In this document: positions 45,006 to 55,157 of the stretch, in pieces
How positions within the stretch are numbered: the stretch's first letter is position 1
Layout: each line of letters begins with the position of its first letter
Source of the DNA: Citrobacter sp. 18056
GTDB taxonomy: Bacteria; Pseudomonadota; Gammaproteobacteria; Enterobacterales; Enterobacteriaceae
DNA length: 64,000 nucleotides
Direction: 5' to 3'
Assembly: GCA_902706235.1 (NCBI GenBank)
Contig: CACSJR010000019.1
Coordinates: 1-64,000 of the forward strand
The notes under the pieces: model-generated
What the model was told of the DNA's origin: nothing
Database searches by the model: none
What the model saw: only the letters and a program-made list of their open reading frames with translations
Program-made: the position numbers and the translations under genes

Positions 45006-47090
45006 TCAGATGGCGTGGATCTCGCCTGTTTTCGTATCCAGATGGAAATTGCGGCTCGGGCTGCCTTTCAGATATTTATCAATCACGCTGAAAATACTGC
45101 CGAAGCGCAGGCGGAAAATCATATCAAACGGACTGTCTGCGGTGACCTCCGGCATCTCGGCAGGCAGAGACTTCGCCAGTGTTAAGGTCAACAGACGGTA
45201 TTCCCTCAGGCGAGAGACGGAAATATCCCTCAGCGCCAGCTCATCGGCATTGCGCAAGCGATAAAAATCCACTGCCAGATCAAAACCGTTCCAGCCAGCA
45301 AACTCCTCAAGCGTCATCCCCGCGTTGCGGGCTAAGGTCCTGGCCCGGCTCTCCGCCTCGCGCCAGGCGGCGGACTCTTTTTTCAGATACAGCCCACTGA
45401 TATCCCGCGGTGCAGGCGCGCTGCCTTTCGCACAAATCGCATGCGCATCTTGCGGCGTGGTTAACACCTCCTGATAGGCCAGCGGGCTGTTGAGCTGACT
45501 TAAAGTCAGCATCTCCGCACCGTTCAGGCTGAACAGCATTTGGCGGATTTCGCACGGCCACTCCTCCGGGATAAAGCGCAACCGGGTGAGTTCAGTAATA
45601 TGCCAGTTGGTGAAATCATAATAATCCCGCGCCCCGAGCACCGCTTTATTCCACAGATGAGGCGAATGGATAGCGTTGAGATGATCCCATTCCTGCTGGT
45701 AGTGCTCAAACAGCTCGTTAAAGCGCGGCACGCTGTTGAGGATTATCGTTTGCACATCAATACTGTTCGGGCTGGAAAAATTGAGGATTTTATAGGCCGG
45801 GACATAGGCTGCCATGGAGGGCGCCTGAATATTAAACAGCAAACTGCCATCCGGGTATTTACGCACGCCCGTATCGTTGAAGTGCATATGTCCGCCCACG
45901 TGAACGCCAATCCCGGTTTTCGCCAGCGCATGGCTGGTATCTTCTTGTGGCGCTCGCGCCAGCTGGAATTTCCCTTTGCCAAAGATATTTTCCAGATCGC
46001 CCGCCGCCCCGTTATCAAACTCCACCATCGGGAAATGGCTGAAGGTAATCAGGGTTTTATTCTGCGCTTTCGCACGCTGCGCGACGTCGGTCATCCAGGC
46101 TACCGTCTGCTGCTTGTGGGTCAGCATCTTGTTATACCCGGCATCGCCTGATCCCTCGAAATTGCTGGCTTCCGTCAATTTCGTCGGATCAGCGTTTTTC
46201 GTCGGAAGATAGACATTTGCATCCACCGCCATCAACCATAACCCCGGCACCGGTTCAACCAGGTAGCTGCTGTCCGCGACAGTGAAGCACGGCCCGTAGC
46301 CCGGTTTTTTATATTTCCCTCCGGTACCCTGGGCGCAAATTTCATACTGCCGCTGGCGGAAATCGCTGGCCTGTTGTGCTTTAGCATAGGAATAATGCTG
46401 TTGGTCATACGATGAATACGGTGTTTCCCAGTAGATATCCGTCTGCTGCGGGTTCATACCAAATGGCGCCATCATGTTCATGATGTACTGATAACCGCTA
46501 CTGACCATCTCCTGGCTGCAAATGGTCGGCAATTCTGCGCCGGTCGCTATCACCGCCGTTTTGCCCTGGTAGCCTTTGCACTCTTTTGCACCAAAACTGA
46601 AAATGCGCTGGGTTTTACCGCCTGCGCCTAAAAAATCCTCTTCACCGCCGGGTAAATCGAAAGGCCGGTTAGGATCGTGATTCCCGGGAGTGGCAAAAAA
46701 ACGCATGCCGTATTTTTGCTGATACTCCTGCAACAAGGTCACCAAACCGCGAATATGTACCGGCTGCCCGTCATCGCTGAAATCCCCCGGTAGCGCGATA
46801 AGTTTTATGCCTTTGCTGCCCGCATCATCCAGTGCGGCACGAAGGGCAAAATAGTTCTCATTGAATAAACGCGTGGAGGTCAACTGCGCATACATGGTAC
46901 GGATCATCGCATTCTGTCCGCTTTTTTGATTCTTCAGGCCACTGAACGCCCCATCCTGGAAGGTGCCATACACATCATGAAAGTGGATATCGGGCATGAA
47001 CGCGACACGGTACTGATAATGTTCAGCCGCCTCCGCAGCGCTGGCGGTCAGCAAAAGGGCGGCAATGTTTGCCATCAAAAATGTCTTCAT
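45006..47090 (-). CDS. Exported calcineurin-like metallophosphoesterase
   Basis: 694 residues from ATG 47090, seven bases after AAGGA; a GTG one codon earlier is possible. Signal peptide (LMANIAALLLTASAAEA) predicts periplasmic location. The five blocks of the metallophosphoesterase fold are complete: PDIHFHD (about 33-39), PGDFSDDG, PGNHDPNRPFD, TFSHFPM and GVHVGGHMHFNDTG. A large insertion with several cysteines lies between GNHD and FSHFP, and about 270 residues follow GGHMH without a domain I know. The substrate cannot be told: phosphomonoester, phosphodiester or nucleotide are possible. Last gene of the PTS-mannosidase operon, 14 bp after the HPr-EI-IIA gene, so a periplasmic step on the same substrate is likely. 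Confidence 0.85.
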   Translation of the reverse strand: MKTFLMANIAALLLTASAAEAAEHYQYRVAFMPDIHFHDVYGTFQDGAFSGLKNQKSGQNAMIRTMYAQLTSTRLFNENYFALRAALDDAGSKGIKLIALPGDFSDDGQPVHIRGLVTLLQEYQQKYGMRFFATPGNHDPNRPFDLPGGEEDFLGAGGKTQRIFSFGAKECKGYQGKTAVIATGAELPTICSQEMVSSGYQYIMNMMAPFGMNPQQTDIYWETPYSSYDQQHYSYAKAQQASDFRQRQYEICAQGTGGKYKKPGYGPCFTVADSSYLVEPVPGLWLMAVDANVYLPTKNADPTKLTEASNFEGSGDAGYNKMLTHKQQTVAWMTDVAQRAKAQNKTLITFSHFPMVEFDNGAAGDLENIFGKGKFQLARAPQEDTSHALAKTGIGVHVGGHMHFNDTGVRKYPDGSLLFNIQAPSMAAYVPAYKILNFSSPNSIDVQTIILNSVPRFNELFEHYQQEWDHLNAIHSPHLWNKAVLGARDYYDFTNWHITELTRLRFIPEEWPCEIRQMLFSLNGAEMLTLSQLNSPLAYQEVLTTPQDAHAICAKGSAPAPRDISGLYLKKESAAWREAESRARTLARNAGMTLEEFAGWNGFDLAVDFYRLRNADELALRDISVSRLREYRLLTLTLAKSLPAEMPEVTADSPFDMIFRLRFGSIFSVIDKYLKGSPSRNFHLDTKTGEIHAI

Positions 47091-47104
47091 CACAATGTCC
47101 TTTA

Positions 47105-49585
47105 TTAGCGGGTGAGTTCTCGCTCAAGCAAGTCGATAATCGCTTTCGGATCATTGCCTTGCAGTAATTGCTGACGAAAATCTTCATGCATCAGCTTGCG
47201 GGCTAGTTTCGAAAAGATTTTCATGTGATCGCCTTTTTCCTGCTCGCTGACTGTCAGCATAAGAACCAGCGACACCTCCACGCCGTCTCCCCACATCAGG
47301 GGCGTATTCAGGCGCAATAAAGAGACGCTGCTGCTGGTGACCGCTGCGGATTTACAGTGCGGGATAGCCACCGCGAAACCGAGTGCGGTCGAGAACACCG
47401 CTTCCCGCTGCCAGATGGCCGTTTCCACCGCCGTACCGGAGCTTACCCGCTGCTCAACCTCAAGGTTATCCGTCAGGCGTTTGATGGCTTCGGCTTTGCT
47501 GGCGACACGCTGATCCAGCATCACCAGCGCCGGATCGAAGACTGGATGGTTGCGCTGTGCCGTTTGCGCTTTGACCCTGCTTTCCACCTCGTTGGCGCTT
47601 TCGCAGCTAAAAGCGTCTTCAAGCGTTTGTCGACATGCCGTCGTATCCAGTGACGCCAGATGCTGCTTCACTTGCCCTATCCGCCCGGAGGACATGCTGA
47701 TTTGTCGCAACCCAGCCCCCAGCAGCAGCGGAAGCGCGGTCGGGTCACCGCCCATTTCACCACACAGGCAGATATCAAGTTTTGCCCGCTGCGCGCTCGC
47801 CGTAATGTCGTTGAGGAGCCTAAGGAAGCCAGGATCACAGTGGTTATAAAGGTGACGTATGCGCGGATTGCCGCGGTCACAGGCGAGGAAATATTGCAGT
47901 AGATCGTTACTGCCAATGGAGACAAAATCGATATACGCTGCCGCGCGCTCCAGCAGGTAAAGCGCCGACGGTACCTCGGCCATGATGCCTAAGTGCCACT
48001 CTCCGATGGCGAGACCTTCGCTCTGTAACTGTTCCGCTATCTGATGGAACTGGGTATGCAGCCACTTCACCTCTTCCAGCGTCGCCACCATCGGCACCAT
48101 AATATGCAGCGGCCCTGTGGCGCTGGCGCGAAGCAATGCCCGCACCTGATGGCTGAAAAGCGTCAGAAACGCGGGATAGAGACGCACCGCACGCCAGCCA
48201 AGGAATGGGTTCTCTTCCGACGGCAGATTGAGATAGTCGCAGGGTTTATCGCCCCCGATATCCAGCGTGCGGATAACCACCTTTCTTCCCTGCGCCTGCT
48301 CCAGCACATGGCGGTAAGCCTGGTACTGCTCCTCTTCTTCCGGCGGCGCGCTGCGTTCACAAAACAGCATTTCGGTGCGAAACAGGCCTATTCCTTCCGC
48401 CCCCGCAGCAAATGCCCCTTCCGCTTCGGCAGCCAGCGCAATATTGGCCAGCAACGATACCGATTCGCCATCGCGGCTGGTGCCCTTTTGCTGCAACAGC
48501 GGTGCTAAGCGCTGGCCGATGCGGGCGTCTTTTTCTGCCTCCATGGCGTACCACTGTTGTGCACACGCATCCGGTGCAATCACCAGCACGCCATAGCGTG
48601 AGTCGAGGAGCAACGGCGTTCCGTCCGGCACTCTCACCTCCGGCGCGCAGAGCAACGGAATGCCAAACGAACGGGCGAGGATCGCGGTATGTGATGTCTC
48701 ACCGCCTTCACCCATCACAATGCCTTTCAGATGCGTTCCACGCAGCGCCAGAAATTGTCCGGGAGTGATTGGGGATGCGCTGATGACGACAGAATCCTGG
48801 GTTAATTCCGGCAAGGTAAAGAGCGGGCCGGGGAGCAGAAACGCCGCCAGACGAAGCCCTAAATCCTGCAAATCCAGCGCCCGCTGTTGCAGATAAACGC
48901 TGCGACTCTCACGCAGCGGAAGGCTGAGTTGAGTGATCACTTGTGCCAGCGCCGCCAACGCATTGCGGGCATTGGGCGCAGAAAACAACGCCTGTTCCAG
49001 CATCGTGTCGTGCAGCAGTTTCTTGTGCGCTTTCAGCACGTCCGCAGTCTCGCCCTGCGCATGCCGCAATTCTGCCTGCACCTGATCACGTACCGCGCTT
49101 AACGCCTGGATCAGCATTTGCCTCTGGTGTTCAGATTCCTGCGGCGCTTCCTGCTCTGCCAGCCGCAACAGATCTACCGTCCCTAACGGCACAGCAATAC
49201 CTTTGGCCAGCCCCGGACTGATGCCGCCGCCACGCAGACATTGCGCGGTGGTGGCCGCCAGAAAGACAGGCAATGGCTGTTCATGAGAAACGGAGGGAGT
49301 GACAAGCGGCGCATCACACTCGGCCAGTTCATTGGTGATAAACGCGCCCAGCGCCTGGCGTGCTGCCTGCTCGTCATCACCATCAATCAGCAGTTCGCAG
49401 GCATCCTGAAATACCACGTCTGCGCCAATTAACGCCAGTACACTACGCGCATCCACCTGTCTCTGATTGCGCAGATTATGCAGGGTGACCCGGGCGTTAA
49501 ATGGCGTCACTCGCTGTTCCAGTTCGCTGGCGGGTCTGGCGTGCAGGCCATTTTCCAGGGGACAAATAAACGGGATTTTAAGCAT
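47105..49585 (-). CDS. Multiphosphoryl transfer protein (HPr-EI-IIA Fru, PtsA/FrwA-like)
   Basis: 826 residues that carry phosphate from PEP towards a sugar. Domains in order: HPr (1 to about 90) with His15 in NGLHARPAS; Enzyme I (about 118-660) with the phospho-His near 299 in GGETSHTAILAR, the PEP domain GAEGIGLFRTEMLF and Cys608 in CLCGEMGGDP; fructose-family IIA (about 685-826) with active His near 743 in AIPHCKS. Same layout as E. coli PtsA (833 residues), but the HPr and linker differ much, so this is a paralogous type. It starts inside the end of the mannosidase gene (8-bp overlap). Together with IIB and IIC it makes a PTS that would not need the housekeeping ptsHI proteins. Confidence 0.92.
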   Translation of the reverse strand: MLKIPFICPLENGLHARPASELEQRVTPFNARVTLHNLRNQRQVDARSVLALIGADVVFQDACELLIDGDDEQAARQALGAFITNELAECDAPLVTPSVSHEQPLPVFLAATTAQCLRGGGISPGLAKGIAVPLGTVDLLRLAEQEAPQESEHQRQMLIQALSAVRDQVQAELRHAQGETADVLKAHKKLLHDTMLEQALFSAPNARNALAALAQVITQLSLPLRESRSVYLQQRALDLQDLGLRLAAFLLPGPLFTLPELTQDSVVISASPITPGQFLALRGTHLKGIVMGEGGETSHTAILARSFGIPLLCAPEVRVPDGTPLLLDSRYGVLVIAPDACAQQWYAMEAEKDARIGQRLAPLLQQKGTSRDGESVSLLANIALAAEAEGAFAAGAEGIGLFRTEMLFCERSAPPEEEEQYQAYRHVLEQAQGRKVVIRTLDIGGDKPCDYLNLPSEENPFLGWRAVRLYPAFLTLFSHQVRALLRASATGPLHIMVPMVATLEEVKWLHTQFHQIAEQLQSEGLAIGEWHLGIMAEVPSALYLLERAAAYIDFVSIGSNDLLQYFLACDRGNPRIRHLYNHCDPGFLRLLNDITASAQRAKLDICLCGEMGGDPTALPLLLGAGLRQISMSSGRIGQVKQHLASLDTTACRQTLEDAFSCESANEVESRVKAQTAQRNHPVFDPALVMLDQRVASKAEAIKRLTDNLEVEQRVSSGTAVETAIWQREAVFSTALGFAVAIPHCKSAAVTSSSVSLLRLNTPLMWGDGVEVSLVLMLTVSEQEKGDHMKIFSKLARKLMHEDFRQQLLQGNDPKAIIDLLERELTR

Positions 49586-52181
49586 CGGATTTTCCTTCTT
49601 TCGCAGGCTGGATCCGCCAGCTCACCGGCGCGCAAGCAGAAACCGTTTTTTGCGGGGCACAAAGCGGGGTTTCCGCCAGCGTGACAGGCGTGATATCTCC
49701 CGCCGCAACAGGGGCCGCGCTGGACAGCAGCGAGGTGCCAGGATTCCAGCCACGCAGGATCAGGGCATCGCCGTTTTGCGCTTTTTTGAGCGTACTGAAA
49801 TGCAACGGCGTATCCCAGCTCAACAGGCTGTACGAGGACGGGAATGACTTGCCATGCGGATTGGTTTTAAAGCGCGACCAGCCGGAATCCAGCCAGCCGA
49901 GGGCGGGCGTGCGCCAGTTCTCCACGTCGCGCCAGAATGTCGCATCCGGCCCCTGATGCAGCGGCAGGAGTGCAAAATGGCAGTGAAATGGCCCCGTCAG
50001 CTGTGAGTCCGGAGAAGGTAAAACCATGCCAGAGGCACGTCCTGGACGCCACGGCATATTGGCTTGTCCCAGCCAGCCGACGCTGCGCAGTAGCGTTATC
50101 GCCAGCGTTGCCGGTTTATCCGCCGGGATCTCATATTCGCGTAGTCCCTCTGTCACCACGCACATCCCATGGCTTTGGTTATGCATCATCACCAGACTTT
50201 GCATCGGCCACAGCGAAGCGGGCGCTTCCGTCCACTGTTCCTGCTGCCACACCGCCAGCGTTTGCGGGCGATTTTCACGGCGGATCAGACCAAAAGGTTG
50301 ATCGGCGAAGTGGAACATCTCGCCAATGTCAGTGGGGATTTCGACCTGCAAGCGATGATCACGCAAGGTGTTATCGAGGCTCACCTGCACATCCAGCAGC
50401 GGGCAGTCATGATCAAGCGCCAGCGTCATGCTGACATTCAACTGCGCGTTGCACAGATGCTGCTGGCGAGCCAGCTGATCGACGGGGGCAGCAATGGACC
50501 AGTTGAGTGTCAGCGTATCGGCAAGCGTACCGCGCTGCCAGGTGGCAGACGTCAACGCGCCATCGCTGGTCACGCGCCAGTCCTCCTCCGGTGGTGAATA
50601 GTTGTAGTTATCGCCCGCATCGCCGCCGTCGACCAGTTGCAGAATGTGTTCCCAACGTTTGCCACTACGTTTATCGAGCAGGGAGATCTGCCCCTCATCC
50701 AGCGTCAGACGCAGCCAGGCGTTTTCCAGCGCTGAAATCTCCCCGCTTGTCACGACAAACCCTGCAGCACAATCTTCCTGAAGATATAACGTCTGATATC
50801 CGCAGGCTGGCAGCGCTTTCGCTTCCAGCAGGAGGGTACATTTGCGATACCAGACCGTCGTCGTGCTGTTAGAAAGCTCCTGCACAATAACCGACATATC
50901 CTGCTGTTCTTCATGCACAATCTGCCAGCGACAGGGCTGTCCTGAGGCATCAACGATGCAAAAATCAGTGCCGGGGACATACAGCGTCAGCGCCACCCGG
51001 CCGTCGCGCTCGTAAGGAAGCGAGTTGAAGATAATGATTTTTTTGCCTTGCTGGCGGGCATCGATCCCTTCCGCCAGCATTTTCATATTCAGCTCAAACA
51101 GCTGGCTGGCGCTTTCCTGCCCGGATGTCAGCCGCGCTTTGACCATCGCATTAACGCGATCGGAGTTACAGCCGCCGATACTGTCATGGGCATGGGATTT
51201 CATCGCCTCGCGCCAGATGTTCTCCACAGCGGTTTGCGGATAAGGCAGCCCCAACCGCCACACCACGCTTAGCAGCGGTTCAAGCTGCTGACTGACAAAG
51301 TTTTCCAGCCTGGCGTTGGCCTGTTTGATATCCATGCGGGTCGAGAAAATGCCCCGATGGATGCGCATATACTTCGGGCTAAGCAGCTCGCCCTGAAATT
51401 CCGCCAGCGTTTCGCCTTCCAGTGCCTGAAAATAGCGGCTGAAATCGCTGCGCACAAAACGGTACTCGTCCTGCTGTTCGTTGAGCGTGTCAAGCATGGC
51501 GGGCACGCCATATTCAAAGGGAGACTGATCATTGCCGTTTGGTAGCAATATCTGCGCTGACGCGCTAAATTTCGCCTGTTTTTGCAATATACCCGGCAGC
51601 ACCCGCCAGGCTTCCTCCGCATTCGTCGGCAGCCATTTAGCGCAACCGTAGCCCCAGGGCAGAACCGCGGTGGTCACACTGCTGCCGTCCGCGCTGCGCC
51701 AGATAAACTCGCTGCTGGCGACGTCGTGTTCACACCAACCGCGCCAGATAACCGCCCGATCGATAGCGAACTGGGCCAGGAACATCGGCAACTGCGCACT
51801 CTGCCCGAATGAGTCGGGAACATAACCAACGGGCATACGGCTGCCCAGCGTCTGGCAGTCCGCCATGCCCAACAGCAGATTACGGGTGATGGACTCTGCA
51901 CCGACCACCAAAAAATCAGTCTGGGTATACCACGGACCGATCAGCAGCCGTCCCGCTGCAATGAGCTTAAGGACTCGCTCACGATTGTCCGGAGCCACCT
52001 GGAAATAGTCTTCCAGCACCACCGTCTGCCCATCCAGAACCAGAGGCCCCAATGATTCATCGGCTTCAAGGCGCGCAATGACGTCGGCCATAAAATAATA
52101 AAGGACCGTTCGCGAGTCATTCTCTGTGAAATACCACTCCCGATCCCAATGCGTATGCTGAATTAAATGAACTGTCTTCAT
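49578..52181 (-). CDS. GH38 alpha-mannosidase (MngB-like)
   Basis: 867 residues from ATG 52181 (MKTVHLIQHTHWDREW); upstream in-frame codons to 52244 have no ribosome site. No signal peptide, so cytoplasmic. GH38 features: zinc ligands in HTHWDREW (His11, Asp13), nucleophile Asp123 in YVPDSFG, further zinc ligand His332 in HAHDSIGGCNSD. Collinear with E. coli MngB, which cleaves 2-O-(6-phospho-alpha-mannosyl)-D-glycerate after PTS uptake (DGQTVVLEDYF, IGPWYTQTD, YMRIHRGIFSTRMDIKQAN). Its place between PTS IIC and HPr-EI-IIA genes suggests that it splits a phosphorylated mannoside delivered by this PTS. The aglycone is unknown. Confidence 0.92.
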   Translation of the reverse strand: MKTVHLIQHTHWDREWYFTENDSRTVLYYFMADVIARLEADESLGPLVLDGQTVVLEDYFQVAPDNRERVLKLIAAGRLLIGPWYTQTDFLVVGAESITRNLLLGMADCQTLGSRMPVGYVPDSFGQSAQLPMFLAQFAIDRAVIWRGWCEHDVASSEFIWRSADGSSVTTAVLPWGYGCAKWLPTNAEEAWRVLPGILQKQAKFSASAQILLPNGNDQSPFEYGVPAMLDTLNEQQDEYRFVRSDFSRYFQALEGETLAEFQGELLSPKYMRIHRGIFSTRMDIKQANARLENFVSQQLEPLLSVVWRLGLPYPQTAVENIWREAMKSHAHDSIGGCNSDRVNAMVKARLTSGQESASQLFELNMKMLAEGIDARQQGKKIIIFNSLPYERDGRVALTLYVPGTDFCIVDASGQPCRWQIVHEEQQDMSVIVQELSNSTTTVWYRKCTLLLEAKALPACGYQTLYLQEDCAAGFVVTSGEISALENAWLRLTLDEGQISLLDKRSGKRWEHILQLVDGGDAGDNYNYSPPEEDWRVTSDGALTSATWQRGTLADTLTLNWSIAAPVDQLARQQHLCNAQLNVSMTLALDHDCPLLDVQVSLDNTLRDHRLQVEIPTDIGEMFHFADQPFGLIRRENRPQTLAVWQQEQWTEAPASLWPMQSLVMMHNQSHGMCVVTEGLREYEIPADKPATLAITLLRSVGWLGQANMPWRPGRASGMVLPSPDSQLTGPFHCHFALLPLHQGPDATFWRDVENWRTPALGWLDSGWSRFKTNPHGKSFPSSYSLLSWDTPLHFSTLKKAQNGDALILRGWNPGTSLLSSAAPVAAGDITPVTLAETPLCAPQKTVSACAPVSWRIQPAKEGKSDA

Positions 52182-52273
52182 ATTATTTTCCGTATTTAAG
52201 ATATGCGACTCCCGCGCGGAGGAAATAATCGATCCACGCTGCAAACTGTTCGGATTAATACGCCAGCAGCGTA

Positions 52274-53395
52274 TTATCTGCTGGCTTTAAATTTCGGCGC
52301 AGGCGTTGTTTTATTACCACCCGAAACAGGCGTTGCTTCGCCACGGAAAATGAATAGCGATCCGCACGCAATAATCGCTGAACCACAGGCAATGGACAGG
52401 ACATAAATCGGCCATTGCTCAACCGCCAGCCAGCCATAAAACCCAGAAATAGGGGCATGGTTACTCGCCCCCAGTCCAACGGCCATCGACGCGCCAACGG
52501 CAGAGCCAATGACGTTAACAACAATGATGCGCGGGTTAGCCAGCGCAAAAGGGATCGCCCCTTCGGACACACCGATAAGCCCCATCAGGGTGGAGGCTTT
52601 ACCGGCTTCGCGCAACGATTCCGGGAAACGCGAAGACCAGATCAACGTCGCCACGCCCAGGCCAATCGGCGGAACAATAATAGCCACCTGAGCCGCAGTA
52701 TTCGGGTCATAGATACCGGAGGCCAGCAGCGCCATCGCGGTCGTTACCGCCGCCTTATTGACCGGACCGCCAAGGTCGAAGCCCACCATGCCGCCAATCA
52801 CCGCCGCCAACAGAACTTTGTTGGTGCCCGACATCGACAGCAACCACTGCTCCATACCGTGATTCAGCGCCGCCAGCGGAGTGCCAATCACAAAGGCCAT
52901 CACGATACAGGTCAGCAGCGTGCCGCCTACCGGCAGGATAAAAATTGGCCCCGCGGAGGCCAGGGTTTTCGGTAATTTAATCCAGCGATTCAGGGCCAGA
53001 ACGATGTAACCTGCCACAAAACCCGCCGCCAGAGCGCCAAGAAATCCGGTGCCCAGATTGCTGGCCAACAGGCCGCCCACCATGCCTGGCGCCAGACCCG
53101 GTTTGTTCGCCAGGGCAAAACTGATATAACCCGCCACTACCGGCAGCATCAGCGACAACGCCAGGCCACCGAAACCATCGAATTTATGCAGCATCTGCAC
53201 CATCACGCTGGCGGCCTGCTCGTGGCTGGCATCCCAGATGTTATCAATGCCGTACAACGAGGCACCGATACGTGCAATCCCCATGATCACTGCCCCGGAG
53301 ATGACAAACGGCAGCATCCATGAGACGCCGGTCATGATGGCGTTTTTCACCTCTGCGCCCGTGGAGCGCTGCCCCCCGCCCTGAAACTTAGCCAT
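52274..53395 (-). CDS. PTS fructose-family IIC permease
   Basis: 373 residues, integral membrane channel of a fructose/mannitol-superfamily PTS with about eight to ten membrane segments. Typical motifs: AIMTGVSWMLPFVISGAVIMGI, GFLGALAAGFVAGYIV, MVGFDLGGPVNKAA, and GLIGVSEGAIPFA with the conserved Glu. FrwC/FruA-like rather than mannose (Man) family. It starts within the IIB gene (8-bp overlap). A hairpin (AATACG-N7-CGTATT, 52257-52275) overlaps its stop codon before the 92-bp gap to the mannosidase gene. Confidence 0.92.
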   Translation of the reverse strand: MAKFQGGGQRSTGAEVKNAIMTGVSWMLPFVISGAVIMGIARIGASLYGIDNIWDASHEQAASVMVQMLHKFDGFGGLALSLMLPVVAGYISFALANKPGLAPGMVGGLLASNLGTGFLGALAAGFVAGYIVLALNRWIKLPKTLASAGPIFILPVGGTLLTCIVMAFVIGTPLAALNHGMEQWLLSMSGTNKVLLAAVIGGMVGFDLGGPVNKAAVTTAMALLASGIYDPNTAAQVAIIVPPIGLGVATLIWSSRFPESLREAGKASTLMGLIGVSEGAIPFALANPRIIVVNVIGSAVGASMAVGLGASNHAPISGFYGWLAVEQWPIYVLSIACGSAIIACGSLFIFRGEATPVSGGNKTTPAPKFKASR

Positions 53396-53702
53396 TTGCC
53401 ACCTCCTGCTCTACGGCTTCAAATACCGCATCGCCAAATTTGATTGGGTCGGAAACGCTGCACTCCAGTTTTATCATGCCGTCGAAGCGCTCTTTATCAC
53501 TGATAGCCACGTCAGCGGCGATGATTACCGCATCGGCCCGGGACAGGTCGTCAGCGGTAATTTCGTTTTCTGTCCCCAGACTGCCCTGGGTTTCTACTTT
53601 GATATCATGACCCCGTTTTTTCCCTGTTATCTCAAGGGCTTCAGCGGCCATAAAGGTGTGCGCGACACCGGTTGGACAAGCAGCGACACAAACAATGTAC
53701 AT
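53388..53702 (-). CDS. PTS fructose-family IIB protein
   Basis: 104 residues. The phosphorylated cysteine is in the family motif CPTGVAHTFMAAEAL (Cys9). Takes phosphate from the IIA domain of the HPr-EI-IIA protein and passes it to the sugar bound at IIC. Separate IIB and IIC polypeptides with a fused IIA-EI-HPr resemble the frw system of E. coli, not MngA, where IIA, IIB and IIC are one chain. First recognised gene of the operon. Confidence 0.93.
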   Translation of the reverse strand: MYIVCVAACPTGVAHTFMAAEALEITGKKRGHDIKVETQGSLGTENEITADDLSRADAVIIAADVAISDKERFDGMIKLECSVSDPIKFGDAVFEAVEQEVANG

Positions 53703-54171
53703 AACGCATCCTCTCTGATGAGTTCAGATAATAAAAAAGCACAATGGCGAAAACGCGCATTGTGCTTTATGAATAGCGATGGGCATGCCAGAAGATGATC
53801 ACCATCTGAGCCACTGGCATGACGGCACATCACCAACTGATGCAGACTCGAATTGCGGAAACTGAATGTCAGTTCCGTCCTTTTACGGCAACCCAATGTC
53901 GATGGCGACGCGGGCTGGGCTGACGGGTCGGGCAGATAAAAATGATGCTCGATATTTATGTACAGCGCCTGACCTGCACAATCCCATAAACTCGACCAGT
54001 TTTGCGCCATTTGCACATCCATATCACCGTCATCCGGCGTATTATTTGCAGTCAGGTCTTGCAGGGAATTAAACCAGCACACATTATCCAGCAGCGCTTT
54101 AATTTTGCTATCAATTGATAGCAAAAAAGCGATACCGTTCATGATAAATGTGATGAAAATAGCTGGCATAC
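53627..54171 (-). CDS. Unrecognised ORF or decayed leader gene before the PTS operon
   Basis: ATG at 54171 has a strong GGAGGT ribosome site four to five bases upstream and opens 181 codons (MPAIFITFIMNGIAFLL as a hydrophobic start). I recognise no family. The frame runs through the intrinsic terminator at 53733-53766 and 76 bp into the IIB gene, which is odd for a normal gene. In another frame a stop codon sits right before the terminator hairpin (HAHRYS then TAA), as if a frameshift had removed the true end. It may be a broken small gene, a leader peptide gene, or chance. The rest of the 53703-54314 gap holds only the promoter region. Confidence 0.3.
53733..53766 (-). terminator. Intrinsic terminator just upstream of the PTS IIB gene
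   Basis: Minus strand: AGCACAATG-N11-CATTGTGCT followed by six T, ending about 30 bp before the IIB start. It lies downstream of the likely promoter at 54195-54236, so it could act as an attenuator for the operon or simply end an upstream leader transcript. Confidence 0.8.
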
Positions 54172-54194
54172 TACCTCCGCAAATAATAATCGGA

Positions 54195-54236
54195 GCATAA
54201 AGCAAAAAATCACTGTTAAATGTGATTTATTGCACA
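54195..54236 (-). promoter_or_regulatory. CRP site and likely promoter of the PTS-mannosidase operon
   Basis: Minus strand TGTGCAATAAATCACA (54221-54236) matches TGTGA-N6-TCACA at nine of ten positions. A -10-like TATGCT lies at 54195-54200, placing the site centre near -41 from a start at about 54188, the class II geometry. Catabolite control is thus likely. No specific regulator gene is beside the operon other than rhaR/rhaS. Confidence 0.65.
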
Positions 54237-54314
54237 GAGCACTCATTTTAATATCACGCGAGGAATAACACTATTAATTGTAGGTTATTTAAAATATTCT
54301 CCTTCGCGGTTATT

Positions 54315-55157
54315 TCAGGCCGCATTACGATGACGCCACTGCCCAGGCGTCATCCCCACTTCCCGGTTAAACACCACTGAAAAGTAGTTACTGTCCTCAA
54401 AGCCACAGTGCATCGCAATTTCCCCGATCATCAATTCGGAATGCTGCAGCAGATATTGCGCGTGGCAAATCCGCAACTGGCGTAAATAGTGGTTGATGGT
54501 CATGCCCGTCTGACTGCGGAACTGCTGACGCAGCGTGCGTTCACTGCACGTTTGCTGTTCGCAGAATTGATCCAGCGCGAAAGGTCTGTTCAGGCTACCC
54601 GCCAGTGCGGTGAGAAGCTTATCGAGCAGCGCCTCGCTTTCGGTGGCCGCCAGGTTATCGGTCGCGAAGCGATGGCGCGTTAATGTCACCACCAGTTGGG
54701 CAAATAACAACTCAGCCATATCGTTCGCGTGATGACCGGTTTTATGGCTCTCCTGTTCCAGTGCGGAGATCACCTGCCGTGCCTGGGTCATGCCGCTGCT
54801 GCCAATCCGCCAGTGCGGCGTCCAGGCCGTTCCATGCAGGCCGGGAATGTGCGCCGCCCAGTCGAGGTTCAGCTTCAGCCGCTCCGGGCAATAAATAATA
54901 TTCTGCAAAACCAGATCGTTAACGGAGGCGTAGGAGTGCTTGTCTTCCGCGCGAATGTAAAACAAATCGCCCCGCGTTATGCGGTACGGGCGATCGTTGA
55001 GGATATGCAGTCCGTTGCCGCGCCACACCAGCACCAGCTCACAGAACTCATGCGTGTGCTCAGCAAACACGTTTTGCGGGTAGCGATCGGCCACCGCCAC
55101 CGCTTGCTGCGGCGACGTAAAAAATTCGGCTTTTCGAAGAATGAATGGTGCAGGCAC
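54315..55157 (-). CDS. rhaR: AraC-family activator RhaR of rhaSR
   Basis: Rhamnose-responsive activator of the rhaSR operon. 280 residues from GTG 55157, which has GAGG six bases upstream; a TTG at 55169 is less likely. The cupin arm ([28 protein letters not shown]) binds rhamnose; the C-terminal part holds two HTHs ([20 protein letters not shown] and [23 protein letters not shown]). Downstream of rhaS in one operon. Confidence 0.93.

Follow-up and report, generated by a model that had tools for sequence, protein, structure and literature searches.

In Citrobacter sp. 18056, five minus-strand genes lie between rhaT and rhaR within a 64,000-nucleotide stretch of DNA (contig CACSJR010000019.1 of assembly GCA_902706235.1, positions 1 to 64,000; here called the window). 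They encode the IIB and IIC components of a fructose-family phosphotransferase system (PTS), a GH38 alpha-mannosidase, a fusion of HPr, enzyme I (EI) and IIA, and a metallophosphoesterase (MPE). Which substrate does such an operon serve, and how is its expression controlled? A first-pass annotation of this DNA had described the five genes and their junctions, and open reading frame coordinates and family searches found all of them as described. The import pathway that it proposed is plausible and partly supported. The main new element is a leader gene in front of IIB, the reading frame of which passes through an intrinsic terminator. The reading that we prefer, at a probability of roughly 0.55, is that the window holds a PTS operon for an alpha-mannoside, probably a phospho-mannoside, that would be started by CRP and gated by a translated attenuator.

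A leader gene and the terminator within its frame

The region from 54236 to 53730, unlisted in the first-pass annotation, contains a CRP-like site, a Shine-Dalgarno sequence, another conserved gene and an intrinsic terminator (Table 1). Locus counts below refer to 15 distinct loci with an orthologous GH38 gene (53 to 100% identity), 12 of which were obtained through GH38 and three (G489, G387 and G406) through order-wide and family-wide searches with the leader. The pairs G387/G406, L066/L070 and G071/G192 are close and were not treated as independent. The leader preceded IIB in all 12 loci found through GH38 (seven first and five added later; 62 to 100% identity). G489, G387 and G406 do not test the link between leader and operon, since they were found through the leader itself. 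A model built from seven operon genomes matched those seven and no other among 198 genomes of the family, and among 394 genomes of the order the clear matches were in the present genome (G000), Buttiauxella agrestis (G019), G489, G387 and G406 only; these searches scored at most 8 to 17 candidates per genome. Weak matches in five genomes contained stops and were dropped as noise, as was a match in G424. With an improved model, the leader was also found before the second IIB, that of an orthologous IIB-IIC-MPE unit, in three of three Photobacterium loci. Each of G387 and G406, which belong to one genus, has three copies, one ahead of IIB, one ahead of a RafY-type porin gene and one ahead of MPE. 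A leader that acts in cis is expected to occur as separate copies in front of separate transcription units, whereas a protein that acts in trans has no need of such an arrangement.

The leaders were 148 to 231 codons long. Nonsynonymous divergence (dN) was lower than synonymous divergence (dS) in 21 of 21 pairs among seven leaders, with a dN/dS of about 0.29 in the closest pair. Summed over seven close pairs, the differences at first, second and third codon positions numbered 68, 70 and 139 in the core and 33, 28 and 39 in the tail. On these substitution patterns, the core of about 120 residues is judged to be under purifying selection. The same excess of synonymous divergence rules out a reading of the region as a noncoding small RNA, and an Rfam search of positions 53000 to 55000 gave five matches, all far under gathering scores. 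A hydrophobic N-terminal stretch (best 17-residue mean hydropathy of at least 1.5 within the first 45 residues) was present in 24 of 25 leaders. A WSxLWxxA motif was conserved beside the C-terminal motif (S)SSxxxLxxCxRxAxG, which ended at codon 118 to 122 in 23 of 23 leaders (motif strings hand-picked from the alignment). The protein was predicted to be mainly helical and gave no usable fold (AlphaFold pLDDT 58.5, pTM 0.28). For 22 members, no Pfam or NCBIfam match was better than E 0.014 and PHROGs gave no match; no rescue-factor model was matched either, the presence of such models in these libraries being unchecked.

In 23 of 25 leaders, a hairpin followed by a T-rich tail separated the conserved core from the gene that comes next, with energies of -14.8 to -21.4 kcal/mol in all 23. 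For four leaders, the shuffles that equalled the hairpin score numbered 0, 0, 1 and 0 of 60. The stem AAAGCACAATG/CATTGTGCTTT was common to 12 of 13 enteric-type loci with varying loops. The Rahnella stem contains a paired T-A to C-G change, and the stems of G387/G406 and Photobacterium differ in sequence yet still pair. An operator was considered for this inverted repeat and found unlikely, because loci differ by one base in the spacing of the repeat yet preserve its folding.

As in a pyrBI-type attenuator, the leader frame spanned the terminator: it was open across the hairpin in all 23 leaders that have one, with the stop 13 to 134 nucleotides past the hairpin. Enterovibrio supplied a 24th leader open through its terminator. 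Among the alternative frames, 36 of 46 carried stops between 60 nucleotides before and 8 nucleotides after the hairpin. When the region between motif and hairpin was shuffled and the hairpin held fixed, the chance probabilities of an open frame multiplied to 1.7e-7 for a set of 14 lineages and to 1.5e-5 for a set of 9, each set being hand-picked. The leader tail was unconserved, and the hairpin was read in different frames between loci. Two close Photobacterium species are a one-base deletion apart in the tail, and both frames are open. The distance from motif to hairpin varied from 39 to 128 nucleotides.

Upstream of the leader, a site matching TGTGN7TCACA with at most one mismatch lay 67 to 73 nucleotides before the ATG in 20 of 25 leaders. 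Such a site occurred in 1 to 2% of 500 shuffles for each of three 200-bp upstream regions. Because the CRP-like site lies at this distance ahead of the leader start, the leader is probably the first thing transcribed. No regulator gene common to the loci was noticed, and no systematic search for one was made.

A diverged leader of like layout precedes the first IIB in Photobacterium and in Enterovibrio; a model of it reached two leaders of the main type only at E 0.0035 and 0.19. At L066:8021-8542 and L067:7945-8541, the diverged leader stands before a different GH38-PTS operon, in the order CRP-like site, leader, in-frame terminator. A search for this IIB1-type leader in the 394 genomes of the order returned no match, a result that is uninformative, as the draw held no known carrier.

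Table 1. Features of the operon and its control region, in the order of transcription
Feature	Position in window	Strand	Basis
CRP-like site TGTGCAATAAATCACA, 67 nt ahead of the leader ATG	54221..54236	-	TGTGN7TCACA
-10-like hexamer TATGCT of the presumed promoter	54194..54199	-	similar position by eye in a 7-locus DNA alignment
Shine-Dalgarno sequence of the leader, GGAGG	54178-54174	-	
Leader gene, 180 codons, tail reading through the terminator into the IIB start	53627..54169	-	conservation, purifying selection
Conserved core of the leader, codons 1-120	54169-53810	-	
Intrinsic terminator within the leader frame: hairpin AAAGCACAATGCGC-loop-GCCATTGTGCTTT followed by a T-rich tract	53736..53768	-	-19.1 kcal/mol, z -6.8
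PTS IIB, fructose family, Cys in CPTGVAHT	53388..53702	-	Pfam PTS_IIB, motif
PTS IIC, fructose family	52274..53395	-	Pfam PTS_EIIC
GH38 alpha-mannosidase, MngB-related	49578..52181 (ATG at 52181)	-	Glyco_hydro_38N/mid/38C
HPr-EI-IIA fusion, 826 aa, phosphoenolpyruvate (PEP)-binding domain included	47105..49585	-	HPr + PEP-utilisers_N + PEP-utilizers + PEP-utilizers_C + PTS_EIIA_2
MPE, predicted to be exported, about 694 aa	45006..47090 (start ATG 47090 or GTG 47093)	-	Pfam Metallophos

Proposed translational read-through of the terminator and its alternatives

In pyrBI and rph-pyrE attenuation, a reading frame runs across or up to an intrinsic terminator, and read-through is set by how closely the ribosome follows the polymerase. 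The leader resembles these systems, and the experimental ribosome-suppressed terminators of PMC4824070 (as far as its accessible text goes), in that a reading frame meets an intrinsic terminator. Unlike them, it belongs to a conserved protein family that is tied to PTS, porin and phosphoesterase genes. According to the accessible text of PMC4824070, an intrinsic terminator is suppressed, completely or in part, when a ribosome translates as far as the terminator or across it, and repression is nearly full for a terminator that lies a few bases behind the translated gene. Citing other work, the same text adds that the ribosome catches up with the polymerase within about 100 to 200 nucleotides. 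Since a leader of about 400 to 490 nucleotides is followed by a terminator in an always-open frame and then by IIB, coupled read-through is proposed as the default.

According to this proposal, a CRP-type promoter would start transcription, and the dedicated leader gene would be transcribed first. The last codons of the leader, in whatever frame, would cross the terminator just before IIB. A ribosome close behind the polymerase would cover the hairpin and allow read-through into IIB-IIC-GH38-EI-MPE; were leader translation to lag, fail or be arrested, the hairpin would form and transcription would stop. Coupled read-through would be the default state, and reduced or arrested leader translation the off state. 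Gene content, the insertion, selection on the leader core, the in-frame terminator, the CRP-like site and the repetition of the module in distant relatives were all read from sequence; from them we infer how read-through is controlled and by what signal, which substrate is used and in what order the enzymes act. On its layout, we class the control module as a form of attenuation in which the terminator lies in frame, but its leader family matched no protein family searched. If the proposal is correct, a sugar regulon would be controlled by translating a dedicated leader of 150 to 230 codons across a terminator, in some genomes with its own copy per unit, and the module would be related to pyrBI/pyrE attenuation but have a long leader that includes a conserved protein part.

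Several observations weigh against translational gating of the operon. In the accessible text of PMC4824070, a terminator read through late in a coding region had its efficiency brought down to 40% but not abolished, and for one placed in the first 100 bp of such a region most of the efficiency remained. Coupling alone is also insufficient: for leader translation as such, a conserved protein of 120 residues would be unnecessary, and the constraint on the core, as judged from substitutions, means that there is a function in the nascent chain or in the finished protein. The openness test draws its strength mostly from AT-rich marine loci: the enteric loci alone are weak (P per locus of 0.22 to 0.95, product over nine lineages of about 0.004), and the 14-lineage product is about 1.2e-6 when the first Photobacterium units are left out. 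The diverged leader, which supplies three of the 23 leaders with a terminator, is tied to the main family mainly through layout. The two leaders before MPE in G387 and G406 have only short, unconvincing stems and no convincing terminator. The CRP-like site (at most one mismatch) is absent from 5 of 25 leaders, a consensus promoter scan of this region found nothing above chance, and a stock terminator scan, in which loops are limited to 8, missed the hairpin. In a simple ungapped search of six leaders, no antiterminator pairing with the hairpin arm, as in trp, beat shuffles. The structure models of the leader and MPE were weak (pLDDT 58.5 and 60.2), and MPE is absent from 7 of the 15 orthologous loci.

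The nascent leader chain might itself be the sensor, in the manner of SecM, VemP or TnaC. Arrest at the (S)SSxxxLxxCxRxAxG motif would uncouple ribosome and polymerase and lead to termination, and an envelope or PTS cue would release it. The nearly fixed distance from start codon to motif, the hydrophobic N-terminal stretch and the conservation of both motifs are consistent with this explanation, and the C-terminal motif is the point of comparison with SecM and VemP. However, the spacing between motif and hairpin is variable, G387/G406 and the first Photobacterium units have a degenerate form of the motif, and no family in Pfam, NCBIfam or PHROGs was matched; we regard a sensor of this kind as unlikely. 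A leader message that ends without a stop codon could also serve another purpose. Its protein would be tagged and destroyed by trans-translation and would accumulate only when rescue is saturated, and the operon would be expressed by leak or from an unseen promoter. ArfA, a protein of about the size of BrfA (72 codons), belongs to this type. In arfA and brfA, a terminator before the stop codon gives a non-stop message (PMC8012679, accessible text), and the leader has the same layout, its frame reaching the terminator without a stop in 23 of 23 cases. This design explains why the core is conserved and the tail is not. It fits less well with the length of the leaders, given a BrfA of only 72 codons in the accessible text of PMC8012679, or with their position before catabolic operons, where they precede PTS, porin and phosphoesterase genes and occur three times in one locus. 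Nor did any member match Pfam or NCBIfam better than the value given above, and we consider a rescue-type leader quite improbable.

A third explanation makes the leader the first structural gene of the operon. It would encode a small helical protein that acts in trans, for example on a PTS permease, as SgrT does, and an ordinary partial terminator would set gene dosage. Purifying selection on the core and the mainly helical prediction, itself of low confidence, agree with such a protein. Against it stand the three copies in one locus, one per transcription unit, in two genomes of one genus, and a tail that stays open across the hairpin whatever the frame, a property that an ordinary gene would not require; this explanation, too, seems to us rather improbable. 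Building on the preferred reading of a translated attenuator, we offer as a tentative extension, more doubtful than probable, that the leaders are a new class of leader protein controlling mannoside-PTS regulons. A nascent chain of about 120 residues would sense transporter or envelope state and pace the ribosome before the in-frame terminator, a copy per unit (PTS, porin, phosphoesterase) would replace a dedicated repressor, and terminated non-stop messages would be cleared by trans-translation. Among the titles and abstract openings listed in a literature search of freely accessible papers, none described the operon or the leader.

Gene content and likely substrate of the operon

IIB and IIC overlap by 8 bp, a gap of 92 bp separates IIC from GH38, GH38 and the HPr-EI-IIA gene overlap by 8 bp, and the gap to MPE is 11 bp with the GTG start or 14 bp with the ATG start. 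Motifs around the active sites, the catalytic roles of which we assume here, were found in IIB, GH38, HPr, EI, IIA and MPE. The mannosidase contains GH38N, middle and C domains together with HTHWDREW, PDSFGQ and HAHDSIGGC, which we take to be its metal and nucleophile motifs. The metal motifs of MPE are DIH, GDF, GNHD and GGHMH, and its export is predicted from a signal-like N-terminus, judged by eye. The solved folds nearest to MPE were Lmo2642 and acid sphingomyelinase/SMPDL3A, in a fold search that used a weak model (pLDDT 60.2, pTM 0.68).

In combining a fructose-family PTS with an MngB-related GH38 enzyme, the set resembles MngA-MngB of Escherichia coli, and it could be another mannosylglycerate operon with unrelated passenger genes. 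Consistent with this, the window GH38 best matched the mannosylglycerate hydrolase model, and IIB and IIC also matched the MngA model. All scores were, however, far under the cut-offs (850 versus 1138 bits for GH38; 222 for IIC and 107 for IIB versus 763 bits for MngA), and IIB and IIC are separate genes, not a single-chain IIABC. In contrast, the genome has a genuine MngAB operon on C9, with a GntR-type regulator alongside, and this one passes both cut-offs (1171 versus 763 and 1363 versus 1138 bits). The window operon is not the ordinary mannosylglycerate operon, because that one lies on C9; its MngB (G000:C9:46882-49341, L004) is 38% identical to the window GH38. The window operon further differs from MngA-MngB in its split IIB and IIC, in an IIA fused to HPr-EI, in the exported phosphoesterase and in a leader with a terminator. 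MPE or porin genes also recur with the set across families, and passengers in a mannosylglycerate operon are a very improbable explanation. A third GH38 gene of the genome, at G000:C4:181410-183707 (L005) and, like the C9 gene, behind fructose-family PTS genes, is 32% identical to the window GH38 and scored 641 of 1138 bits.

Fructose-like PTS of E. coli, Fry and Frw, contain FryA/FrwA fusions, and FryA has the same HPr-EI-IIA order as the window fusion. To our knowledge, no mannosidase or phosphoesterase accompanies them. IIB and IIC matched PRK10474 and PRK10478, which we take to be FryB and FryC, with scores under the cut-offs (119.5 of 135 bits for IIB, 264 of 426 for IIC). On its matches, we class the operon as an MngAB/Fry variant in which no gene reaches the cut-offs for MngA, MngB, FryB or FryC.

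IIB and IIC were kept across the orthologous loci, the IIC proteins being 74 to 89% identical to that of the window. The other components varied. HPr-EI-IIA was full length in 6 of 15 loci (G000, G183, G019, L096, G489 and G406), was present as HPr-EIN-IIA lacking the PEP-binding domain in 6 (G103, G192, G071, both Providencia loci and Chimaeribacter arupi) and was missing from 2 (G140 and Rahnella); in G387, EI was not seen, as the stretch ends at GH38. The shortened proteins (L044, L045, L046, L060, L061 and L064) are 511 to 528 residues long, and all six keep the histidine motifs of HPr, EI and IIA. DhaM is an IIA-HPr-EIN protein without the PEP-binding domain. The six short relatives are like it in lacking that part and retaining the histidine motifs, and unlike it in their fructose-type IIA and domain order; the window copy differs further in being full length. 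Because the histidine motifs are kept, as in DhaM, the shortened form probably takes phosphate from the general PTS of the cell. The description of the phosphate relay as self-sufficient holds for the window, where HPr, EI with its PEP-binding domain and IIA form one chain, but not for the operon family. The private EI of such an operon can lack its PEP-binding domain or be absent altogether.

MPE was found in 8 of 15 loci (G000, G103, G140, both Providencia loci, C. arupi, G387 and G406), that is, in 6 of the 12 found through GH38 and 2 of the 3 found through the leader. In three of the loci without it (G183, G019 and G489), a FucP/GluP-like major facilitator superfamily gene, below model cut-offs, takes its place. 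In the three Photobacterium loci, orthologous IIB-IIC (IIC 73 to 74%) is followed by MPE (59 to 60%) with no GH38 in that unit, and a second PTS unit with a 38% identical GH38 lies beside it. The first-pass annotation had made the retention of MPE a measure of its pathway. The gene does accompany the set in distant lineages, including all three Photobacterium IIB-IIC units, but an obligatory role is weakened by its absence from the seven loci. MPE relatives were found in 4 of 198 family genomes, three with the operon and one (G151) without it. Around more distant relatives (38 to 45%) in four further genomes, the stretches read contained no relatives of the window PTS genes, and no leader rose above noise (best E 0.2). 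The G151 copy, a 34 to 41% relative (L048), lies outside a PTS context, beside a solute-binding protein gene and an N-acetylglucosamine-kinase-like gene. In view of these relatives, MPE by itself is not specific to PTS.

A KdgM-family porin gene adjoins MPE in both Providencia operons, and RafY-type porins occur in G387 and G406. An EEP-family (Exo_endo_phos) phosphoesterase gene follows MPE in four marine-type loci (L066, L082, L143 and L152), and the three of these proteins that were inspected have a signal-like N-terminus. These genes fit an anionic or phosphorylated substrate outside the cell. Gene content points to an alpha-mannoside, probably a phospho-mannoside, as the substrate, most likely presented outside the cell as a phosphate monoester or diester. 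The exported MPE would remove or split the phosphate of such an ester, the fructose-family IIBC would import the freed mannoside and phosphorylate it, and GH38 would cleave the resulting 6-phosphomannoside inside the cell; in the window copy, the fused HPr-EI-IIA would carry the phosphate relay. An alpha-mannoside-type PTS operon in the rha locus is thus the part of the earlier pathway that is supported, and an obligatory MPE and a generally built-in EI are the parts that are not. That porins and exported phosphoesterases are linked to a GH38 PTS operon would point to phosphorylated mannosides as a food source.

Distribution and genomic position

The block had been called an insertion between rhaT and rhaR. 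This is borne out by comparison: rhaT lies next to rhaR in all six further genomes of the genus and in one E. coli record. A megablast search with the block gave no match in an E. coli collection of 20,395 records. An orthologous GH38 was present in 1 of 7 genomes of the genus. Among 198 genomes of the family, drawn evenly, 26 contained a GH38 relative; in 7 it was an orthologue at 66 to 100% identity, the next best being 39%. Among the best 80 loci of a scan of named genomes, further orthologues came from Providencia rettgeri, P. alcalifaciens, C. arupi, Rahnella ecdela and another Buttiauxella record. The loci obtained through GH38 are G000, G183, G140 (Enterobacter sp. ENT03), G103, G192, G071, G019 and L096 (the second Buttiauxella), together with P. 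rettgeri, P. alcalifaciens, C. arupi and R. ecdela. L059 is the same as G140 and L062 the same as G019, and each was counted once. The position of the operon differs between genomes, and among the stretches read it stands beside rhaT and rhaR only in G000 and G183. On this evidence, we take the operon to be horizontally acquired, not ancestral.

A second C. arupi record, L145 (NZ_CP119397.1), was left out of the counts. In it, the operon lies on a 250-kb plasmid near a class A beta-lactamase gene, and GH38 is interrupted (three pieces in two frames), unlike the intact gene of C. arupi L061. The PLSDB gene table of this plasmid, incomplete by design, lists no gene at the leader position. In Buttiauxella DSM 4586 (L096:10007-15493), the operon is followed by a gene that by eye resembles a PTS permease, a gene for a PHP-domain protein and a second GH38 gene (31%).

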